Shown here in pieces: positions 2-32,532 of a stretch of DNA of 32,532 bases; position 1 is the first letter of the stretch, and each line of letters begins with the position of its first letter. Source of the stretch: Lutibacter sp. (GTDB lineage: Bacteria; Bacteroidota; Bacteroidia; Flavobacteriales; Flavobacteriaceae); contig JAUSOJ010000305.1 of NCBI GenBank assembly GCA_030656195.1, positions 1-32,532 of the forward strand. The letters are read 5' to 3'. The notes beneath the pieces are model-generated. The model was given only the letters and a program-made list of their open reading frames with translations, did no database searches and was not told where the DNA came from. The position numbers and the translations under genes are program-made.

Positions 2-1411
2 GGGCCGGCATTATTTTTTACAAATTCAGATTCTTTAATTCTTCAAATTCATCCAAAAGCAGCGCTAATAGATAGTTTATGGATGAATAAATTGATAAAA
101 TCTCCTTTGTATGACAAGGAATTATATGTATTAGGCAATGACGAAATGTTTGTTGCTGAACTTGAAGAGTTGTCAACCGAATTGTTAAAATCACGTTTAA
201 AACATTTAAACAGCAAAACGCCTTTTAAAATTGAATACAATCCAGATCTGGAACAAATCATAAGGACCTATTTGCAAAAAAGAAAATCGTCCATTTCTAC
301 CATTATGGAGCGGGCACGTTATTTTTTCCCTATGTTCGAAGAACATTTGGCTAAATATAACATCCCTATGGAACTAAAGTATTTGGCGGTTATTGAGTCG
401 GCTTTAAATCCAAATGCGCGATCTCGTGTGGGAGCAACAGGTTTGTGGCAATTTATGTATCCAACAGGGAAATTTTACAATTTAGAGGTGAGTTCGTATA
501 TAGATGAACGTTCAGATCCATACAGAGCTACCGAAGCTGCTTGCAAGTATTTGGAAAGTTTATATAAAATGTATGGTGATTGGAGTATGGTTTTGGCAGC
601 CTACAATTACGGTCCGGGAAATGTTTCCAAAGCCATCAGAAGAGCCGGAGGAAGCACCAACTATTGGACTATCCGTAAATATTTACCTAAAGAAACCGCA
701 GCTTATGTACCGGCTTTTTACGCCACGATGTATCTTTTTGAATATGCAAAGGAGCACAATTTAAAATCGAAGGAAAATGCAATTTCTTATTATGCAACAG
801 ATACAGTCCAAGTTAAAAGACAGTTGACTTTTGCACAAATCAATGAAACTTTAAATATTGATATTGAGGTACTTAAATTTTTAAATCCGCAATATAAACT
901 GGATATTATTCCTTATATTAAAGATAAAAACTATATACTAACCTTACCGATAAAAGATATAGGAAATTTTGTAAGCAATGAAAGGTTGATTTATGCCTAT
1001 GCCGATTTAGCCGATGCAAAAGAAGAAAAGCCATTGTTGGAACTCATAAAATTGGAAGATAAGATTACATACAAGGTGAGAAGTGGCGATAATTTAGGAA
1101 AAATAGCCCAAAAACATGGTGTTGCCGAAAGCAATTTGAAAAAATGGAACAATTTAAAAAGCTCAAGAATATTGGTAGGGCAAAATTTGGTGGTTTATCC
1201 TAAAAACACCAATCCGGTTGTTGCACAAAAAGCGACTCCAGCCAATAGCGAAAGCAAAGAACAAACGTATTACATTGTTAAAATGGGAGATTCATTATGG
1301 TCTATCGCAAAAAAATATTCAAATGTTTCGGTCCAAAATATTAAAGATTGGAACAATATTTGGAGTGTAAATAGTCTAAAACCCGGAATCAAATTAAAAA
1401 TATTTAATTAA
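2..1411 (+). CDS. mltD: Membrane-bound lytic murein transglycosylase D-like protein (SLT domain plus two C-terminal LysM domains), 5' end outside window
   Basis: The frame stays open upstream of the listed ATG at 83 to the window edge. SLT motifs ALNPNARSRVGATGLWQFMYPTGK and AAYNYGPGNV; LysM-like YKVRSGDNLGKIAQKHGV and YIVKMGDSLWSIAKKYS. Confidence 0.9.
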   Translation, partial: GPALFFTNSDSLILQIHPKAALIDSLWMNKLIKSPLYDKELYVLGNDEMFVAELEELSTELLKSRLKHLNSKTPFKIEYNPDLEQIIRTYLQKRKSSISTIMERARYFFPMFEEHLAKYNIPMELKYLAVIESALNPNARSRVGATGLWQFMYPTGKFYNLEVSSYIDERSDPYRATEAACKYLESLYKMYGDWSMVLAAYNYGPGNVSKAIRRAGGSTNYWTIRKYLPKETAAYVPAFYATMYLFEYAKEHNLKSKENAISYYATDTVQVKRQLTFAQINETLNIDIEVLKFLNPQYKLDIIPYIKDKNYILTLPIKDIGNFVSNERLIYAYADLADAKEEKPLLELIKLEDKITYKVRSGDNLGKIAQKHGVAESNLKKWNNLKSSRILVGQNLVVYPKNTNPVVAQKATPANSESKEQTYYIVKMGDSLWSIAKKYSNVSVQNIKDWNNIWSVNSLKPGIKLKIFN

Positions 1412-1498
1412 TGAAACGAGCATAACAAATTTTGATGCACAAGGGAATGATTAATAGCGAACAGCAGCTGTTACCGCAAATAAATAAAATTTAAACAG
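1411..1498 (+). repeat. Copy R1 of a dispersed repeat, ATGAAACGAGCATAACAAATTTTGAT...GCGAACAGCAGCTGTT...AACAG, ending at the ATG of the next gene
   Basis: Aligns directly with 28975-29062 and 29063-29166. Confidence 0.85.
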
Positions 1499-2473
1499 AT
1501 GAAAAAGATCGGACTTTTATTGGCATTTATCTCCATGCTGATTTCCTGTGATACAGGCAGTAATAAAAAAGTACTGCAAGAAGCAAACGGCCGAATGAAC
1601 AATTTGCTGATCGTTATGAAAAATAGCGAATGGCAAGGCGAAATTGGCGATGAATTGCGAAAAATTATTGCAGAACCAGTAATTGGATTGCCACAACCTG
1701 AAGCACAATTTGAAGTGACCCAAGTGCCGCCAGAAAGTTTTGGAAGCATGTTTAAAGCCAGCAGAAGCATTTTGCATGTGGGCATTGGAGCAGAGAATTC
1801 TTTTTTGGGAGTTTCAAATGTATATGCAGAGCCGCAAAAAATTATCACCATTACCGGAAAAGACAAAGAATCGCTGATTCTTGAAATTCAAAAAAACGCA
1901 AAAGCACTTATCTCCGGATTTAAAACCGCCGATTTGCTCACCGTGCAACGTTCAATTTATAAAAATTACTGGGATCCGACAAAAATGGAAACTTTTACAA
2001 AAAACGGTTATTCCTTAAAAATTCCAAAAACCTTCAGCAAAGTTGACGATACCGGAGATTTTGTTTGGTACAGGATGCGTTTAGACGGCGGAAACAGCAT
2101 GGAATTGTTTTCCTACACGGTTCCAATTCAATCCATAGATGACGAAAACGGAAACAATCTTGTGGCGATAAGGGACACCATCGGCAAAAAACATATTCCA
2201 GGTCAAATTGAAGGATCTTATATGATTACAGAAGCGGCGTACACGCCACATATTTTTGAGGTAAAACTTGATGGAAAAAAAGCCCTGGAAGCAAAAGGAA
2301 AATGGGAAGTGAAAGGCGTTTATATGGCCGGCCCGTTTTTAAGTTATTCCATTATCGACAAGGCAAAAAACAGGTTGGTGGTGGTTGAAGGTTTAACCTA
2401 TGCGCCATCAATTAACAAACGCGACTATATGTTTGAATTGGAAGCGATAATGAAAACCATTAAGATAAATTAA
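1499..2473 (+). CDS. DUF4837-like lipoprotein
   Basis: 324-aa ORF with lipoprotein signal MKKIGLLLAFISMLISCDTG; overall resemblance to the Bacteroidetes DUF4837 family from memory. Confidence 0.75.
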   Translation: MKKIGLLLAFISMLISCDTGSNKKVLQEANGRMNNLLIVMKNSEWQGEIGDELRKIIAEPVIGLPQPEAQFEVTQVPPESFGSMFKASRSILHVGIGAENSFLGVSNVYAEPQKIITITGKDKESLILEIQKNAKALISGFKTADLLTVQRSIYKNYWDPTKMETFTKNGYSLKIPKTFSKVDDTGDFVWYRMRLDGGNSMELFSYTVPIQSIDDENGNNLVAIRDTIGKKHIPGQIEGSYMITEAAYTPHIFEVKLDGKKALEAKGKWEVKGVYMAGPFLSYSIIDKAKNRLVVVEGLTYAPSINKRDYMFELEAIMKTIKIN

Positions 2474-2805: not shown

Positions 2806-3378
2806 ATGAAATACTTATTTACGCTATTATTTGCAATTTTTATTATTTCTAATTCGATTGCACAAACGCAAAAAGCGAATATCAATACTTCTCGTTCAAA
2901 TATTAAAAAGGGATTAAATAACCCAGCCGACAGTTTGCAGCAAAAAGCGAATATCAATACTTCTCGGTCAAATACTAAAGGGGGTTTAAACAAGCCAGCC
3001 GATAGTTCGCAGCAAAATAAAGGTTATGATGCGTCTCATAGACTAACAAGAGGCACTAGTTCTTCTATCAAAAGTGATGAAAGAAACACAACCGACAGTC
3101 TGCAGCAAAAAGCGAATCACAACACTGCCAGAAGCAACAAAAGTACAGTTAAAGGTGATGGAGGAAGTCCAGCCGACAGTTTGCAGCAAAAAGCGAATAT
3201 CAACACTTCACGGTCAAATTCTAAAGGGGGATTAAACAAGCCTGCCGACAGTCTGCAACAAAAAGCAAACATCAATACTTCTCGGTCAAATATTAAAGGG
3301 GGATTAAACAAGCCAGCCGACAGTCTGCAACAAAAAGCAAACATCAATACTTCTCGGTCAAATATTAAAAAGAATTAA
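2806..3378 (+). CDS. Secreted 24-aa tandem-repeat protein (consensus QKANINTSRSNIKGGLNKPADSLQ)
   Basis: Signal peptide MKYLFTLLFAIFIISNSIAQ followed by about seven repeat units, two of them degenerate. Confidence 0.7.
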   Translation: MKYLFTLLFAIFIISNSIAQTQKANINTSRSNIKKGLNNPADSLQQKANINTSRSNTKGGLNKPADSSQQNKGYDASHRLTRGTSSSIKSDERNTTDSLQQKANHNTARSNKSTVKGDGGSPADSLQQKANINTSRSNSKGGLNKPADSLQQKANINTSRSNIKGGLNKPADSLQQKANINTSRSNIKKN

Positions 3379-3428
3379 AAAAGCGATTTTATTGAGAGTG
3401 TCATCTCACATAAATAATAAAATATTAA

Positions 3429-3465
3429 ACAAAAAGCGCCTTGAAAAGGGCGCTTTTTGTTTAAT
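3429..3465. terminator. Bidirectional terminator hairpin AAACAAAAAGCGCCTTGAAAAGGGCGCTTTTTGTTT
   Basis: Long inverted repeat with A/T tracts on both sides; its core is the reverse complement of the hairpin at 4409-4445. Confidence 0.85.
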
Positions 3466-3479
3466 ATAATTTTGTAAAC

Positions 3480-3626
3480 CTATTCTTCTATTTTAGCCCA
3501 GCTGTCTCTCAATGGCACGGTTCTGTTGAAAACCAAATGGAATTCGGTGGTATCTTTATCAACACAAAAATACCCCAAACGCTGAAACTGGAATCGGTCC
3601 AAAACATTGGCTTCTTTTAAACTTAA
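3480..3626 (-). pseudogene. Duplicated 3' end of glnS (about 47 codons)
   Basis: Encodes [47 protein letters not shown], identical to the glnS C-terminus except for M to I near the end. Confidence 0.9.
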
Positions 3627-4392: not shown

Positions 4393-4408
4393 GAGAAAAT
4401 ATGCAATC

Positions 4409-4445
4409 AAACAAAAAGCGCCCTTTTCAAGGCGCTTTTTGTTTT
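4409..4445. terminator. Bidirectional terminator hairpin AAACAAAAAGCGCCCTTTTCAAGGCGCTTTTTGTTTT
   Basis: Strong inverted repeat between the convergent antitoxin gene and glnS. Confidence 0.87.
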
Positions 4446-4462
4446 ATTATAATTTAGTAGAC

Positions 4463-6142
4463 TTATTCTTCCATTTTAGCCCAGCTGTCTCTCAACGGAA
4501 CGGTTCTGTTGAAAACCAAATGGAATTCAGTGGTGTCTTTATCAACACAAAAATACCCCAAACGCTGAAACTGAAATCGGTCCAAAACATTGGCTTCTTT
4601 TAAACTTGGCTCCACAAAAGCTTCCAAAACCGTTAAAGAATCCGGATTTAAAAAGTCTTTAAAATCTTTTTCTTTATGGCTGTCTGGCGCTTCTTCGGTA
4701 AACAATCGGTCGTAAACCCGAACTTCTGCTTTTATGGCGTGTTTAATGGAAACCCAGTGCAACGTGCCTTTAACTTTGCGCTGACTTGCTTCTGTGCCGC
4801 TTCCGCTCAAACTTTCGGTATCATAGGTACAGTGAATTTCAGTAATTTCACCGTTTTCGTCTTTTACCACCGATTCAGCTTTAATAATATAGGCATTTTT
4901 CAAACGCACTTCATTTCCTAATTTTAAACGGAAGAACTTTTTGTTTGCCTCTTCTCTAAAATCTTCTTTTTCAATATAAATTTCTCTGCTAAAAGGAACT
5001 TCTCTAAAACCGGCACTTTCATCTTCCTGGTTGTTTTCAGCAGTTAGCCATTCTTCATTTCCTTCAGGATAATTGGTTATCACTACTTTTATTGGATCTA
5101 AAACTGCCATCACGCGTGGCGCCGTTTTGTTTAAATCGTCTTTAATGCAATATTCCAGCAACGCCACATCGGTTACGTTATCGCGCTTCGAAATTCCTGC
5201 AGTTTCGCTAAAAGTCCTGATAGATTCTGGCGTATAACCTCGTCTTCGCAAACCCGATATGGTTGGCATTCTTGGGTCATCCCAACCGGTAACAATGCCT
5301 TCTTCAACCAATTGCAGCAATTTGCGTTTGCTCATCACCGTATAACTCAAATTTCTTCGCGCAAATTCACGTTGTTTCGGACGCAATTTTTCCGGATCGT
5401 AAACCTGGTCAATATACCAGTCGTACAAATCCCTGTGACTTTTAAACTCCAATGTGCAAATAGAATGCGAAATTTGCTCCAAATAATCACTTTCGCCGTG
5501 CGTCCAGTCGTACATCGGATAAATACACCAATCATTTCCTGTTCTGTGGTGGTGTCTTTTTAAAATGCGGTACATAATGGGGTCGCGCATATGCATATTC
5601 ACGTGTTTCATGTCAATTTTTGCGCGCAAAACGTGTGAACCTTCCTCAAAATCACCATTTTTCATTTTTAAAAACAGCGCCAAATTTTCTTCTACCGACC
5701 TGTTTCGGTTCTTACTGTCGGTTCCCGGTTCGGTTGGCGTTCCTTTTTGCAAAGCCATTTCTTCCGATGATTGGTCATCAACATACGCTTTTCCGTTTTT
5801 TATAATTTCAACAGCCCAATCATACAATTGCTGAAAATAGTCCGATGAATACAATTCTTTGTCCCACGTAAAACCCAGCCATTGCACATCGTGTTTTATG
5901 GAATCAACATATTCCTGTTCCTCTTTTGCCGGATTTGTATCGTCAAAACGCAGGTTCACCGGCGCATTGTAGCGCAATCCCAAACCAAAATTCAAACAAA
6001 TGGAAGCCGCGTGGCCAATATGTAAATAACCATTTGGTTCAGGCGGAAATCTAAATCGTAATTTATCTTGGGCCAAACCGTTTGCCAAATCATCTTCAAT
6101 AATTTGCTCAATAAAATTCAGCGATTTTTTTTCTTCACTCAT
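4463..6142 (-). CDS. glnS: Glutamine--tRNA ligase
   Basis: Motifs RFPPEPNGYLHIGHAASICLNFGL (HIGH) and VMSKRKLLQL (KMSKS-like). Start probably MSEEKKSLNF rather than the longer track ORF. Confidence 0.95.
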   Translation of the reverse strand: MSEEKKSLNFIEQIIEDDLANGLAQDKLRFRFPPEPNGYLHIGHAASICLNFGLGLRYNAPVNLRFDDTNPAKEEQEYVDSIKHDVQWLGFTWDKELYSSDYFQQLYDWAVEIIKNGKAYVDDQSSEEMALQKGTPTEPGTDSKNRNRSVEENLALFLKMKNGDFEEGSHVLRAKIDMKHVNMHMRDPIMYRILKRHHHRTGNDWCIYPMYDWTHGESDYLEQISHSICTLEFKSHRDLYDWYIDQVYDPEKLRPKQREFARRNLSYTVMSKRKLLQLVEEGIVTGWDDPRMPTISGLRRRGYTPESIRTFSETAGISKRDNVTDVALLEYCIKDDLNKTAPRVMAVLDPIKVVITNYPEGNEEWLTAENNQEDESAGFREVPFSREIYIEKEDFREEANKKFFRLKLGNEVRLKNAYIIKAESVVKDENGEITEIHCTYDTESLSGSGTEASQRKVKGTLHWVSIKHAIKAEVRVYDRLFTEEAPDSHKEKDFKDFLNPDSLTVLEAFVEPSLKEANVLDRFQFQRLGYFCVDKDTTEFHLVFNRTVPLRDSWAKMEE

Positions 6143-6250
6143 AATAACATCAGACTTATAAGTTGCAAAATTATTGATTTTTTTCGGCAATAACTACAAA
6201 ATCACACTGCATATTCAACAAAGGCGTAAAGCCATCATTTTTAAAGCATT

Positions 6251-6360
6251 TTTTTGGGCGTTCCCCGCCAACTGGCGGGGTCGGGCTTTCACTACTCGCA
6301 TTTTTTAGTTGCGAAAAGCAACAAAAAAAGTGCTCAAACACGCCGTTCAATCCCTAACGC
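6251..6360 (+). repeat. Copy A of a two-hairpin dispersed intergenic repeat (core TTTTTGGGCGTTCCCCGCCAACTGGCGGGGTCGGGCTTTC)
   Basis: Palindrome CCCCGCCAACTGGCGGGG at 6263-6280; matches the reverse complement of regions near 6960-7040 and 21119-21192. Confidence 0.75.
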
Positions 6361-6932: not shown

Positions 6933-6954
6933 ACGTAAATCATTTTACGTTAGC

Positions 6955-7043
6955 AATTGCAGCGGCATCCTTTTTTATAGCGAAGCGAAAAAAAGATATA
7001 GCGGAAAGTGCGACCCGCCAGCCGGCGGGGAACGTCCAAAAAA
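6955..7043 (-). repeat. Copy B of the two-hairpin dispersed repeat (minus orientation)
   Basis: Reverse complement reads TTTTTTGGACGTTCCCCGCCGGCTGGCGGGTCGCACTTTCCGCTATATC; palindrome at 7014-7029. Confidence 0.75.
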
Positions 7044-23314: not shown

Positions 23315-23647
23315 TTAGTTTTTCACGCTCATGCTAAATTGCTCGCTGATTATTTTTAATTCGGTTCTGAAAGCAACAAATTTACCACTAAAAAGTTTGG
23401 TAGCTTCGTCGCGCAATCTTGCGGCGTCTTCTTTATAATATTCCTGTAAAGTTGCCAAACTTTCGGTGGTATATTGCACAGAGTAGGTTGTGCCGCCCAT
23501 TTCTTCCTCAATCATCACCTGGCTCATTTTGGCGTAGCTGAATTTTCCGGTTGAAAGCATATCGGGAATGTGTTTTTCTTTCATCCATTGCAACCATTCA
23601 TCGTGGATGGATTCTTCTATATTTGTGGTAACGCTGTAGATGTACAT
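23315..23647 (-). CDS. DUF4286 family protein
   Basis: 110 aa; [45 protein letters not shown] resembles DUF4286 from memory. Confidence 0.8.
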
Positions 23648-23648
23648 A

Positions 23649-23774
23649 TTAAAAGTTAGATATTAGATATTAGATATTAAAAGTTAAAAGTTAAAAGTTA
23701 AATGTTAAAAGTTAAAAGTTAAATGTTAAATGTTAAATGATAAATGTTAAATGTTAAATGTTAAATGTTAAAAG
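23649..23774. repeat. Heptanucleotide tandem repeat array (TTAAAAG/TTAAATG units plus AGATATT x3)
   Basis: Period of 7 bp with about 14 or more units, directly abutting the DUF4286 start codon. Confidence 0.93.
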
Positions 23775-23825
23775 AAAAATAACTGCTAAAGATAAAAAAT
23801 ATCTTTCTTAAGTGACTCTTTCAAA

Positions 23826-28858: not shown

Positions 28859-28974
28859 TGAATTAGGCATCTGGCATTGTCAAAATAATTTATGAAATGA
28901 GCATAAATGAACAATCCAGTGATTACTGATGATGTTTGAATTCCATACGATCTATTAAAAAATTATAACTCCAG

Positions 28975-29062
28975 ATGAAACGAGCCATAACAAATTTTGA
29001 TACACACAGAAATGATTAATGGCGAACAGCATCTGTACCAATAAAAAATAAATAATAAACAG
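28975..29062 (+). repeat. Copy R2 of the dispersed ATGAAACGAGCC repeat
   Basis: Near-identical to R1 and R3; tandem with R3. Confidence 0.9.
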
Positions 29063-29166
29063 ATGAAACGAGCCATAACAAATTTTGATATACAGAAATG
29101 ATTAATGGCGAACCTGCCAGCCGGCAGGCAGGCAGCAGCTGTTCCAATAAAAAATTATAACTCCAG
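29063..29166 (+). repeat. Copy R3 of the dispersed ATGAAACGAGCC repeat, carrying an inserted CCTGCCAGCCGGCAGGCAGG palindrome
   Basis: Aligns with R2; extra GC-rich palindromic segment at about 29113-29132; ends at the metalloprotease ATG. Confidence 0.9.
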
Positions 29167-32100
29167 ATGAAACAACATTACATAAAACGGTTCCTTTTAA
29201 CATTTTCTTTATGCCTGCTATTTTTTGCTGTATCAGCCCAAAATTCGGATGAATTATGGACTAAAAGTACCGGTTTTGAAAAAAGCGCCAGTAAAAAATT
29301 AGACAGAAAATCCATTCCAAACAAATTTGAAACCTATCAATTAAACGTTAACCAACTCAAAAGTAAGTTGAGCAAGGCGCCAAAGAGAAAAGAGAATTTG
29401 GAAAAATCGACCACCGTTTTAAGTTTTCCGAATGAAAAAGGAAAATTGGAAAAATACCAAGTTTTTGAAGCTTCCATTTTAGATGAAAATCTTCAAAAGC
29501 AATATCCGAATATCAGGTCTTATGTAGGAAAAGGGATTGACAATCCGGGTTCCACAATAAGATTTAGTGTAACGCCACATGGTTTGCATGCTATGGTTTT
29601 GGGAAATGCCGAAGGAAGCGTTTTTATTGATCCAACTACTGAAAATGGCGATTCATACATTGTTTATTCAAGCAAAAATTTGCCTTCCATTGAGCCTTTT
29701 GAATGCAAATTTGATGAGGTAAACACCGTACAAAAAACAACCGCATCAACCGCTGCAGCAAAAGCTGAAAATGCCAACGACGGAAAATTAAGAACTTTTA
29801 GGCTGGCTATTGCCACAACCGGTGAATATTCAACATTTCATTTAAATAGACAAAATATTAGTCCATCAGCAACAGTTGAAGTAAAAAAAGCGGCGGTTTT
29901 ATCGGCAATCGTAACAACAATGACCAGAGTGAACGGTATTTTTGAAAGAGATGTTGCTTTAACGATGAAGCTCGTTGCCAACAATACGGCCGTTATTTTT
30001 TTGGATGCCGCAACTGATGGTTTTACAAATAACGATTCCAATAAATTAATTAATGAAAGCCAAACGATTATTGATGCGAATATAGGAGCTGCGAATTATG
30101 ATATTGGACATACATTTAGCACCGGTGGCGGTGGTTTGGCACAATTAAACGGCCCTTGTAATGCTGGAATGAAGGCCAGAGGAATCACAGGCTCAAGCAG
30201 TCCAATTGGAGACGCTTACGATATTGATTATGTTGCACATGAAATGGGACATCAATATGGTGCGCACCATACCTTTAATGGTGATTCAGGTGGTTGTGGT
30301 GGTGGCAACCGAAATAATGGAACGGCTGTAGAGCCAGGAAGCGGATCGACAATTATGGCCTATTCCGGACTTTGTGCGCCCTATAATGTTACAAATGATG
30401 CCGATGCCTATTTTCATTTGGTGAGCATCAGGGAAATGTGGTCGAATATTTCTTCAGGATACAGTACATGCGCCGCTGTTTCTGTAACAGGAAACAATGC
30501 GCCAACTTTGATCGATATCCCAAATTATACCATCCCAAAATCTACGCCTTTTATATTAAATGCCACTGCATCAGACGTTGATGGAGACATTTTGTGGTAT
30601 ACTTGGGAGCAATTGGATACTGAAATCACCACCTATCCATTGGTTTCAACTGCTACTGGAGGACCAGCTTTCAGGTCAATTCCCCCAACTGTTAATTCAA
30701 AGCGTTATTTTCCAAATCTGGCAACGATTATTAGCGGAAATTTATCAAACCAATGGGAAGTGTTGCCTTCCGTTAGCAGAACGATGAGGTTTGGGGTAAT
30801 TGTTAGAGACAACAACAGCAATGGCGGACAAACGGGCAGCAAGGAAACGACAGTTACTGTTGCCGGAGGTTCTGGACCCTTTAAGGTTACTTCTCAATCA
30901 ACCGATGTTACCTGGGCAGCAGGAACTTCCCAAACCATCACTTGGGATGTGGCAAACAGCAATGCAGCACCTGTAAATTGTTCTTTTGTAAATATTCTGT
31001 TGTCTACGGATGCTGGTTTAACTTTCCCAATAACTTTGGCTTCAAATGTGCCAAATGACGGTTCTCAAGGGATTGTTGTTCCGAATAATGCCACCAATAA
31101 GGCGCGCATTAAAGTTGAAAGCGTGGGAAATATTTTTTATGCGATAAATGCCAAAAACATAACCATTCAAACTTCTGAATTTATCATGAATTTTGTCGAC
31201 TATTCAAAAAAAGTGTGTATCCCTAATACTGCAGTTTATACGTTTACCTACAATACTTTTTTAGGATTTAATGCCCTAACTACTTTTTCCGCCACCGGAA
31301 ATCCCGTCGGTTCAACAGTTACTTTTAATCCGGCCACGGCAACAAGCAACAATACGAGTGTTCAGGTAACCATAAGCGGAATTTCAATTGTTGGGAATTA
31401 TGATGTTTCAATTATAGGGACCTCTGCTTCAATAACAAAAACTACAAGCATTAATTTAGGGGTTTACAGTGCAACTGTTGCAGCGCCAACGCTGGTTTCG
31501 CCCGCTAACAATGTGATTGATGTATTAAAACCCTTTTATTTAGATTGGAATGATGACGTAAACGCAACAAGTTACTTTGTTCAAATCTCTCAAGACTCAG
31601 GTTTTGGCAGTATTTTAGAATCTGACAATGTAGTTTTAAGCGCTTATTCACCTCAAAATCTGCAGTCAAAAACAACTTACTATTGGAGGGTTAAATCGAT
31701 AAATGATTGCAATGAAAGCGCTTATTCGGGCATATTCAAATTTACAACCGAAAATGAGGTGTGTGACACAAAAAACGCATTGGATACACCTAAAAATATC
31801 CCTGACAATAACGCTACCGGCGTTTCTTCAACCATTTCAATTTCCGATAACAAACTAATAAGAGACATAAATGTTACCGTAAATATTCCACATGAATGGG
31901 TGGGCGATTTGGATTTGACTTTAATAAGTCCAAGCGGTAGACAAGTAATGTTATCTGCCAATAATGGTGATGACGGAACAGGTTATATAAATACTGTTTT
32001 TGACGATAGTGCTTTAAATTCAATCAGAGATGGAATAGCTCCTTTTACGGGCACATTTAGTCCGGAAGGATCATTGTCCAATTTTTATAATGAAGAATCT

Positions 32101-32532
32101 TTTGGAAACTGGACTTTAAAAGTGGTGGATTCAGGTCCTGAGGATATAGGAACAATCAATAGCTGGCGTCTTGAAATTTGTGGAGTTCCTATTGCAAATG
32201 TTAATGATGATGACAATGATGGCGTTATGAATGATGTTGACAAATGCCCCAATACAACTCCAGGGTCATTGGTTGATGCGGCTGGTTGTTTTACTTTGCC
32301 GGCAAATAATTTCACCGTAGAAACACTAAGTGAAACCTGTCCGGGCAAAAACAACGGACAAATTAAAATTACGGCTGTTAAGACACTAAATTATACCGTA
32401 ACAATTAACAATGTTCCGTATAATTATACAAGTACAACCTCAACGCCGGCAAATTTGGCTCCGGGAACGTATAATTTCTGTATTGGGGTTACAGGGCAAA
32501 CTTACACGCAATGTTACGCTGTTACCGTTGCT
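29167..32532 (+). CDS. Reprolysin-like zinc metalloprotease with fibronectin III-like and proprotein-convertase P domains; 3' end outside window
   Basis: Frame open for 1122 codons to the window end; signal MKQHYIKRFLLTFSLCLLFFAVSAQ; zinc motif HEMGHQYGAHHTF; P-domain-like VTVNIPHEWVGDLDLTLISPSGRQVML...FGNWTLKVVDSGPEDIGTINSWRLEICG; thrombospondin-type-3-like DDDNDGVMNDVDKCPNTTPG. Confidence 0.9.
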   Translation, partial: MKQHYIKRFLLTFSLCLLFFAVSAQNSDELWTKSTGFEKSASKKLDRKSIPNKFETYQLNVNQLKSKLSKAPKRKENLEKSTTVLSFPNEKGKLEKYQVFEASILDENLQKQYPNIRSYVGKGIDNPGSTIRFSVTPHGLHAMVLGNAEGSVFIDPTTENGDSYIVYSSKNLPSIEPFECKFDEVNTVQKTTASTAAAKAENANDGKLRTFRLAIATTGEYSTFHLNRQNISPSATVEVKKAAVLSAIVTTMTRVNGIFERDVALTMKLVANNTAVIFLDAATDGFTNNDSNKLINESQTIIDANIGAANYDIGHTFSTGGGGLAQLNGPCNAGMKARGITGSSSPIGDAYDIDYVAHEMGHQYGAHHTFNGDSGGCGGGNRNNGTAVEPGSGSTIMAYSGLCAPYNVTNDADAYFHLVSIREMWSNISSGYSTCAAVSVTGNNAPTLIDIPNYTIPKSTPFILNATASDVDGDILWYTWEQLDTEITTYPLVSTATGGPAFRSIPPTVNSKRYFPNLATIISGNLSNQWEVLPSVSRTMRFGVIVRDNNSNGGQTGSKETTVTVAGGSGPFKVTSQSTDVTWAAGTSQTITWDVANSNAAPVNCSFVNILLSTDAGLTFPITLASNVPNDGSQGIVVPNNATNKARIKVESVGNIFYAINAKNITIQTSEFIMNFVDYSKKVCIPNTAVYTFTYNTFLGFNALTTFSATGNPVGSTVTFNPATATSNNTSVQVTISGISIVGNYDVSIIGTSASITKTTSINLGVYSATVAAPTLVSPANNVIDVLKPFYLDWNDDVNATSYFVQISQDSGFGSILESDNVVLSAYSPQNLQSKTTYYWRVKSINDCNESAYSGIFKFTTENEVCDTKNALDTPKNIPDNNATGVSSTISISDNKLIRDINVTVNIPHEWVGDLDLTLISPSGRQVMLSANNGDDGTGYINTVFDDSALNSIRDGIAPFTGTFSPEGSLSNFYNEESFGNWTLKVVDSGPEDIGTINSWRLEICGVPIANVNDDDNDGVMNDVDKCPNTTPGSLVDAAGCFTLPANNFTVETLSETCPGKNNGQIKITAVKTLNYTVTINNVPYNYTSTTSTPANLAPGTYNFCIGVTGQTYTQCYAVTVA

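Follow-up and report, generated by a model that had tools for sequence, protein, structure and literature searches.

An 88-nucleotide element inserted precisely before start codons in Lutibacter, with a putative internal guide and features of a miniature mobile element

Copies of the element in the window

The window considered here is the whole 32,532-nucleotide (nt) stretch of contig JAUSOJ010000305.1 of Lutibacter sp. (assembly GCA_030656195.1), and its subject is an 88-nt repeat, the start-codon element, one copy of which (R1) separates an mltD-like gene from a DUF4837 gene. Comparison with related genomes showed precise insertion of the element, in a single orientation, into ATGAA sequences, most of which are start codons. 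The copies, their neighbour genes and the parts of R1 on which the argument relies are the following.

83..1411, plus strand: upstream gene, MltD-like transglycosylase with SLT and LysM domains (Pfam PF01464, PF01476)
1411..1498, plus strand: element copy R1 (family I), 88 nt, between the mltD stop and the DUF4837 start
1411..1415, plus strand: left ATGAA of R1, the element/target core, assigned by comparing targets across sites
1451..1472, plus strand: internal guide-like segment TTAATAGCGAACAGCAGCTGTT of R1, assigned by complementarity to the element's own joined-ends junction and by covariation
1479..1498, plus strand: A-rich 3' tail of R1, the putative translation start region of DUF4837, assigned from the sequence and its A positions
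1499..2473, plus strand: downstream gene DUF4837 (Pfam PF16125, E 8e-88), with its ATG at 1499
28892..28974, plus strand: copy R0, a diverged family III-like element (profile match, E 1.7e-4)
28975..29062, plus strand: copy R2 (family I), 88 nt, with its 3' end at the ATGAAA that opens R3
29063..29166, plus strand: copy R3 (family I) with an inner GC-rich hairpin insert, its 3' end at the start codon of the next gene
29167..32532, plus strand, running off the window: reprolysin-like metallopeptidase (M12B-type) with a P-domain (Pfam PF13583, PF01483)

The position that the initial annotation gave to the repeat, between the MltD stop and the DUF4837 start, is exact: the mltD-like open reading frame (ORF) closes with TAA at 1409-1411, R1, reading ATGAAACGAGC...TTTAAACAG, begins on the last base of that stop, and the ATG follows it directly. 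The core 21-mer has three matches in the window against 0.02 expected from shuffling, and the curated Rfam models gave no match at R1 up to an E value of 5. The further claim that both distant copies end on a start codon holds for R3, which abuts the metallopeptidase start, and fails for R2, which ends on the ATGAAA of R3. R0 is an older copy that stands before R2; its tail AAAAAATTATAACTCCAG is common to R0 and R3, and the array has therefore probably grown by insertion between related copies. The insert in R3 is a GC-rich hairpin of the repetitive extragenic palindrome (REP) type, nested at 29113-29134.

Insertion at start codons across Lutibacter

The DUF4837 locus is found without the element in the genomes G005, G021, G029 and G014. 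At the empty site of G029, ATTTAATTA runs directly into ATGAAAAAGATCGG, where the window has ATTTAATTA, then ATGAAACGAGC...TTTAAACAG, then ATGAAAAAGATCGG. Clean empty alleles were found at 16 further loci (17 in all), each compared in several relatives, and it follows from these exact empty orthologous sites that the repeats are insertions, as the initial annotation had proposed among other possibilities, with the empty loci joining exactly at the ATG. Each insertion separates the gene from its old translation start region by 88 nt and leaves ATGA(A) at both ends; since the target is always ATGA(A), a duplicated target copy of the kind expected of a miniature inverted-repeat transposable element (MITE) is indistinguishable from the element's own end. 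At the targets of hypD (ATGAAGC) and of an acetyltransferase-like gene (ATGAATT), the left end stays ATGAAAC, so that the duplication is at most ATGAA. At nearly every site, close relatives differ in whether they carry the element, and its distribution on a small tree is patchy. A copy at the locus L017 has private variants common to G000, G009, G021 and G034. G001, which the tree places as the sister of G000 (support 0.72), has a clean empty site there, and this pattern implies either a precise loss of the copy or its exchange for an empty allele. The L017 insertion (G000, C252:2495-2585) fell at an overlapping stop and start, and the upstream gene, with an altered C-terminus, now ends inside the element.

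Placement was analysed statistically on fetched loci, which supplied 138 distinct terminal copies from three families (I to III). In 114 of the 138 sites (41/50 in the own genome, 73/88 in others), a frame of 50 codons or more begins at the ATG of the 3' end, while the intergenic ATGAA available in those loci comprise 238 start-like and 369 other occurrences, which gives an odds ratio of 7.4 (p 3e-21). The suggestion that copies cluster directly 5' of ORF starts is thereby borne out, and random placement fails strongly. In the joined sequence, the median distance at which the upstream frame of the start-site ATGs closes is 6 codons, and in none of the 100 tested does it stay open for 50; these ATGs are, therefore, true starts and not internal ones. 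No copy was seen interrupting a gene body, although ATGAA occurs 2,366 times inside genes. The targets were ATGAAA in 128, ATGAAT in 5 and ATGAAG in 3 of the 138 sites (ATGAA in 136/138), and ATGAAA starts make up 24% in element-free genes. ATGA is the target in 137/138, and the single GTGA site has an ATGA orthologue (L144). Among the 24 exceptions, several lie at an ATGAA that stands a few bases before a probable start (L122, L047, L157) or precede shorter ORFs, and these exceptions point to a recognition of ATGAA at the DNA level combined with a further preference for starts. The target genes, identified by reading translations, are functionally unrelated (thyA, hypD, thrB, coaE, TspO, DUF4837).

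The own genome (2.92 Mb, 336 contigs) yielded 61 matches in the first search, and the 5'-end pattern was found there in 59 places against 5 for a reversed control. In the fetched loci, a profile detected 70 copies, spread over 52 sites and with a tandem period of about 88. About 10 more sites came to light with the 3'-end pattern, and all of them precede an ORF, among these thyA, coaE and a PPK2-like gene (names again read from translations); the total is about 62 sites and about 80 copies, with one to three in tandem per site. Near-identical copies are abundant in about 15 Lutibacter genomes and rare or absent in the remaining genomes of the genus that were searched; the high-copy genomes that carry names are metagenome-assembled. 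Families II (ATGAAACGCC..., 31 copies in G023) and III (ATGAAATGAGCATAACGG...) match family I in length, placement and type of tail, mixed tandem arrays of families I and II exist, and some copies are decayed. Many copies, including those at L071, L137, L122 and L156, contain nested GC-rich REP-like hairpins (e.g., GCCAGCCGGCAGGCAGGC, AGTCCCGAATTTTCGGGATT) at a single fixed position, which lies between the two helices described below. No match to the element was found among 50,697 phage and 72,556 plasmid records.

Putative internal guide and proposed mobilisation

One internal segment of the element, here called the guide, pairs through its two adjoining halves with the 5' and 3' ends; it is the reverse complement of the junction formed by the joined ends. 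The guides of families II and III, TAGGCGTT-C-CATTTG and TATGCGTATT-A-CATATG, are near-exact reverse complements of the 3' end joined to the 5' start, and their single mismatch faces the A after the ATG in both. The complementarity amounts to 14/15 in family II and 16/17 in III_b, scores reached by 0 of 2000 and 1 of 2000 shuffles (p <=0.0005), while that of family I is weaker (p 0.03): a full match on its 3' side is seen in copies that have CATCTGTT/AACAGATG, and its 5' side matches in part. In R1, the left half of the guide pairs with the 5' end only weakly, and the right half (1465-1472) pairs with 1494-1501, so that helix 2 takes in the start codon. Compensatory changes support both predicted helices. 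In the alignment of families II and III, 84% of the cells pair, and 27 cells are double-changed, compared with 11.9 after shuffling and 0-5 after sliding. The base that precedes the ATG covaries in family I (C-G, T-A, A-T), with a smaller gain. The alignments are small (17 and 28 rows) and made of related sequences, the slid control being the more telling.

These features make it fairly probable, in our judgement, that the repeat belongs to the non-autonomous miniature mobile elements, being moved in trans, with the internal guide serving in the recognition of its ends and the A-rich tail making its insertions tolerable. The folded single strand would bring both boundary ATGs to the same internal CAT. 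A mobilising enzyme would then use this fold, much as IS200/IS605 guides are used, to locate both the element's ends and the ATGA target on single-stranded DNA; the junction of an excised circle would read AAACAG followed directly by ATGAAACG. The enzyme would be supplied in trans, a Y1/HUH transposase being the best present candidate: the Y1_Tnp domain is found in 14/16 high-copy against 6/20 low-copy genomes (Fisher p 0.0008, relatedness ignored). Tandem arrays could arise from repeated insertion at the element's own leading ATGAAA. Insertions inside genes would be purged, and those before starts would survive because the A-rich 3' tail may act as a Bacteroidetes translation start region. 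The family I tail carries As at positions -6 and -10 to -13, which come close to the positive positions that were measured in Flavobacterium johnsoniae (PMC6847099), although all three families have a C at -3. Such a likeness would explain why the insertions are tolerated.

Several observations weigh against this proposal. The Y1 correlation is uncorrected for relatedness, and G017 and G027 are high-copy yet have no Y1_Tnp match; an autonomous parent with these ends was not found in the part of the genus's Y1 loci that was inspected, the Y1 genes there having other ends; a circle or a transposition event was not observed; the guide has CAG instead of CAT in many family I copies, R1 included; and targeting of ATGAA at the DNA level cannot by itself account for the sevenfold preference for starts over intergenic ATGAA, and either selection or a targeting step specific to starts is needed as well. 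Other candidates were also set aside. Of the copies with a 3' end only, considered as a route to the parent, ten proved to be further start-codon copies and one a chance match, and a family III copy beside a Y1 gene in L305 stands at the start of the next gene, probably by coincidence. The window's own genome, G000, has no match to IS110 and none to RVT_1, the reverse transcriptase of a possible retroelement. The loci L306, L307 and L310 hold IS200-like elements with a common left end, AATCAATAG|AATTCCCCGAGGCTCTGCCTCGGG, that are unrelated to the start-codon element.

The start-codon element shares with the IS200/IS605 family and its ends-only derivatives, the palindrome-associated transposable elements (PATEs), the lack of terminal inverted repeats, precise insertion at a fixed short target, in-element guide bases that pair with the boundary sequences, and, as proposed, mobilisation in trans (PMC6006769, PMC7290912). 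A fixed short target and a single orientation, as expected of a PATE, were found; inverted ends, as expected of a MITE, were not, ATGAAACGAGC and TTTAAACAG(ATG) being no inverted copies of each other. In IS200/IS605 the guide bases pair with boundary tetranucleotides (PMC6006769), and such a guide lies beside each subterminal hairpin, whereas here the two helices share one central guide for both ends, no hairpin with a guide at its foot stands at each end, the target is mostly a start codon, and no parent with shared ends was found among the Y1 loci inspected. The bridge RNA of IS110 likewise holds a guide complementary to the joined element ends around the core (PMC11208160); however, its guides pair with opposite strands, while the single contiguous guide in Lutibacter matches one strand of both ends. 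REPs and their paired forms (REPINs), moved by REP-associated tyrosine transposases (RAYTs), are also small, intergenic, non-autonomous and of high copy number (PMC3116915, PMC6006769), but the Lutibacter element is not a palindrome with a GTAG foot and stands exactly at starts in the sense orientation; the short palindrome with a GTAG/GTGG foot is absent from the family consensus, and REP-like GC hairpins occur only as nested inserts. Unrelated genes of Beggiatoaceae, Cyanobacteria and five Bacteroidetes have TAACTGA heptamer repeats directly before their putative start codons (PMC4679880); these repeats are 7-nt tandem units, in contrast to an inserting 88-nt element with empty sites, a guide and its own start region. 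These repeats (PMC4679880) and miniature elements of other kinds are the nearest described; no description of a start-codon-inserting miniature element was found in the open-access literature, subscription papers lying mostly outside the search.

Alternative readings, meaning and other features of the window

The strongest rival, though on balance unlikely, is a selected regulatory leader that spread by any route and is kept before starts because its RNA regulates translation; in that RNA, helix 2 would hide the start codon, and a mini-ORF would run from the old start codon upstream of the gene. It agrees with a start preference that exceeds the ATGAA motif, with the covariation of the helix that holds the start codon, and with the upstream ORF of 22-27 codons that subfamily I_A and family II keep. 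Orthologous copies are, besides, 94% identical, against 91% for the adjacent coding sequence and 85% for the upstream flank, although some of the pairs may be different insertions and the conservation could stem from a recent origin. It is opposed by the patchy presence of the element among close relatives, the unrelated functions of its target genes, the family III upstream ORF of at most 10 codons and the decay of some copies. A conserved leader peptide was rejected: the frame is shifted in I_B, stops by at most 10 codons in family III, and residues vary freely at some positions. The selection as a 5' leader that the initial annotation had considered is no more than suggested by the start-region-like tail and by copies at least as conserved as the adjacent coding sequence.

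Insertion at the RNA level, in which the element RNA is joined to an mRNA at the start codon by CAT-AUG pairing and reverse-transcribed back to DNA, would account for the sense orientation, the preference for start codons and a guide complementary to AUG contexts; it is, however, highly improbable, as no reverse transcriptase matches were found in the own genome, G003, G009, G021, G029 and G034, all of them copy-rich, and at a few sites the ATGAA is no start codon. Least probable is gene conversion or recombination between leaders seeded by a short identity, CAGATGAAA, which the empty-site alignments largely refute: they put the CAG in the 3' end of the element and leave as near-universal target only ATGA(A), too short for homologous exchange, site-specific variants are common to orthologous copies (e.g., at L017), and conversion need not be invoked. 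Tandem and mixed I-II arrays are nevertheless evidence that copies come together and may recombine, and conversion may contribute to tandem growth.

Returning to the mobile element, a bolder and more tentative interpretation, which we regard as possible but rather doubtful, is that it represents a class of mobile 5' leaders that target translation starts as such, via a guide complementary to their own joined ends and the AUG, and rewire dozens of gene starts per genome. To our knowledge, this would be the first described mobile element with the start codon as its insertion site. Bacteroidetes lack Shine-Dalgarno sequences, and the insertions offer dozens of natural before-and-after experiments per genome on translation start in this group. 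They also suggest a route to a near-harmless transposable element in a compact genome, namely to land on starts and bring a replacement start region, and the self-complementary guide makes the mechanism of transposition directly testable.

The window holds several other repeats and an RNA. An Rfam Flavo-1 RNA lies at 6943-7019, above the gathering score, beside a GC palindrome with inverted repeat copies at 6250-6279 and 7014-7043. A heptamer array of TTAAAAG/TTAAATG/TTAGATA occupies 23635-23788, upstream of the minus-strand ORF 23315-23647, and 72-nt tandem repeats fill 2806-3407 within the small ORF 2806-3378. Two 42-nt inverted repeats (95%) with terminator-like cores, at 3424-3465 and 4406-4447, flank two small ORFs, and a 90% direct repeat (3439-3624 and 4422-4607) overlaps them.
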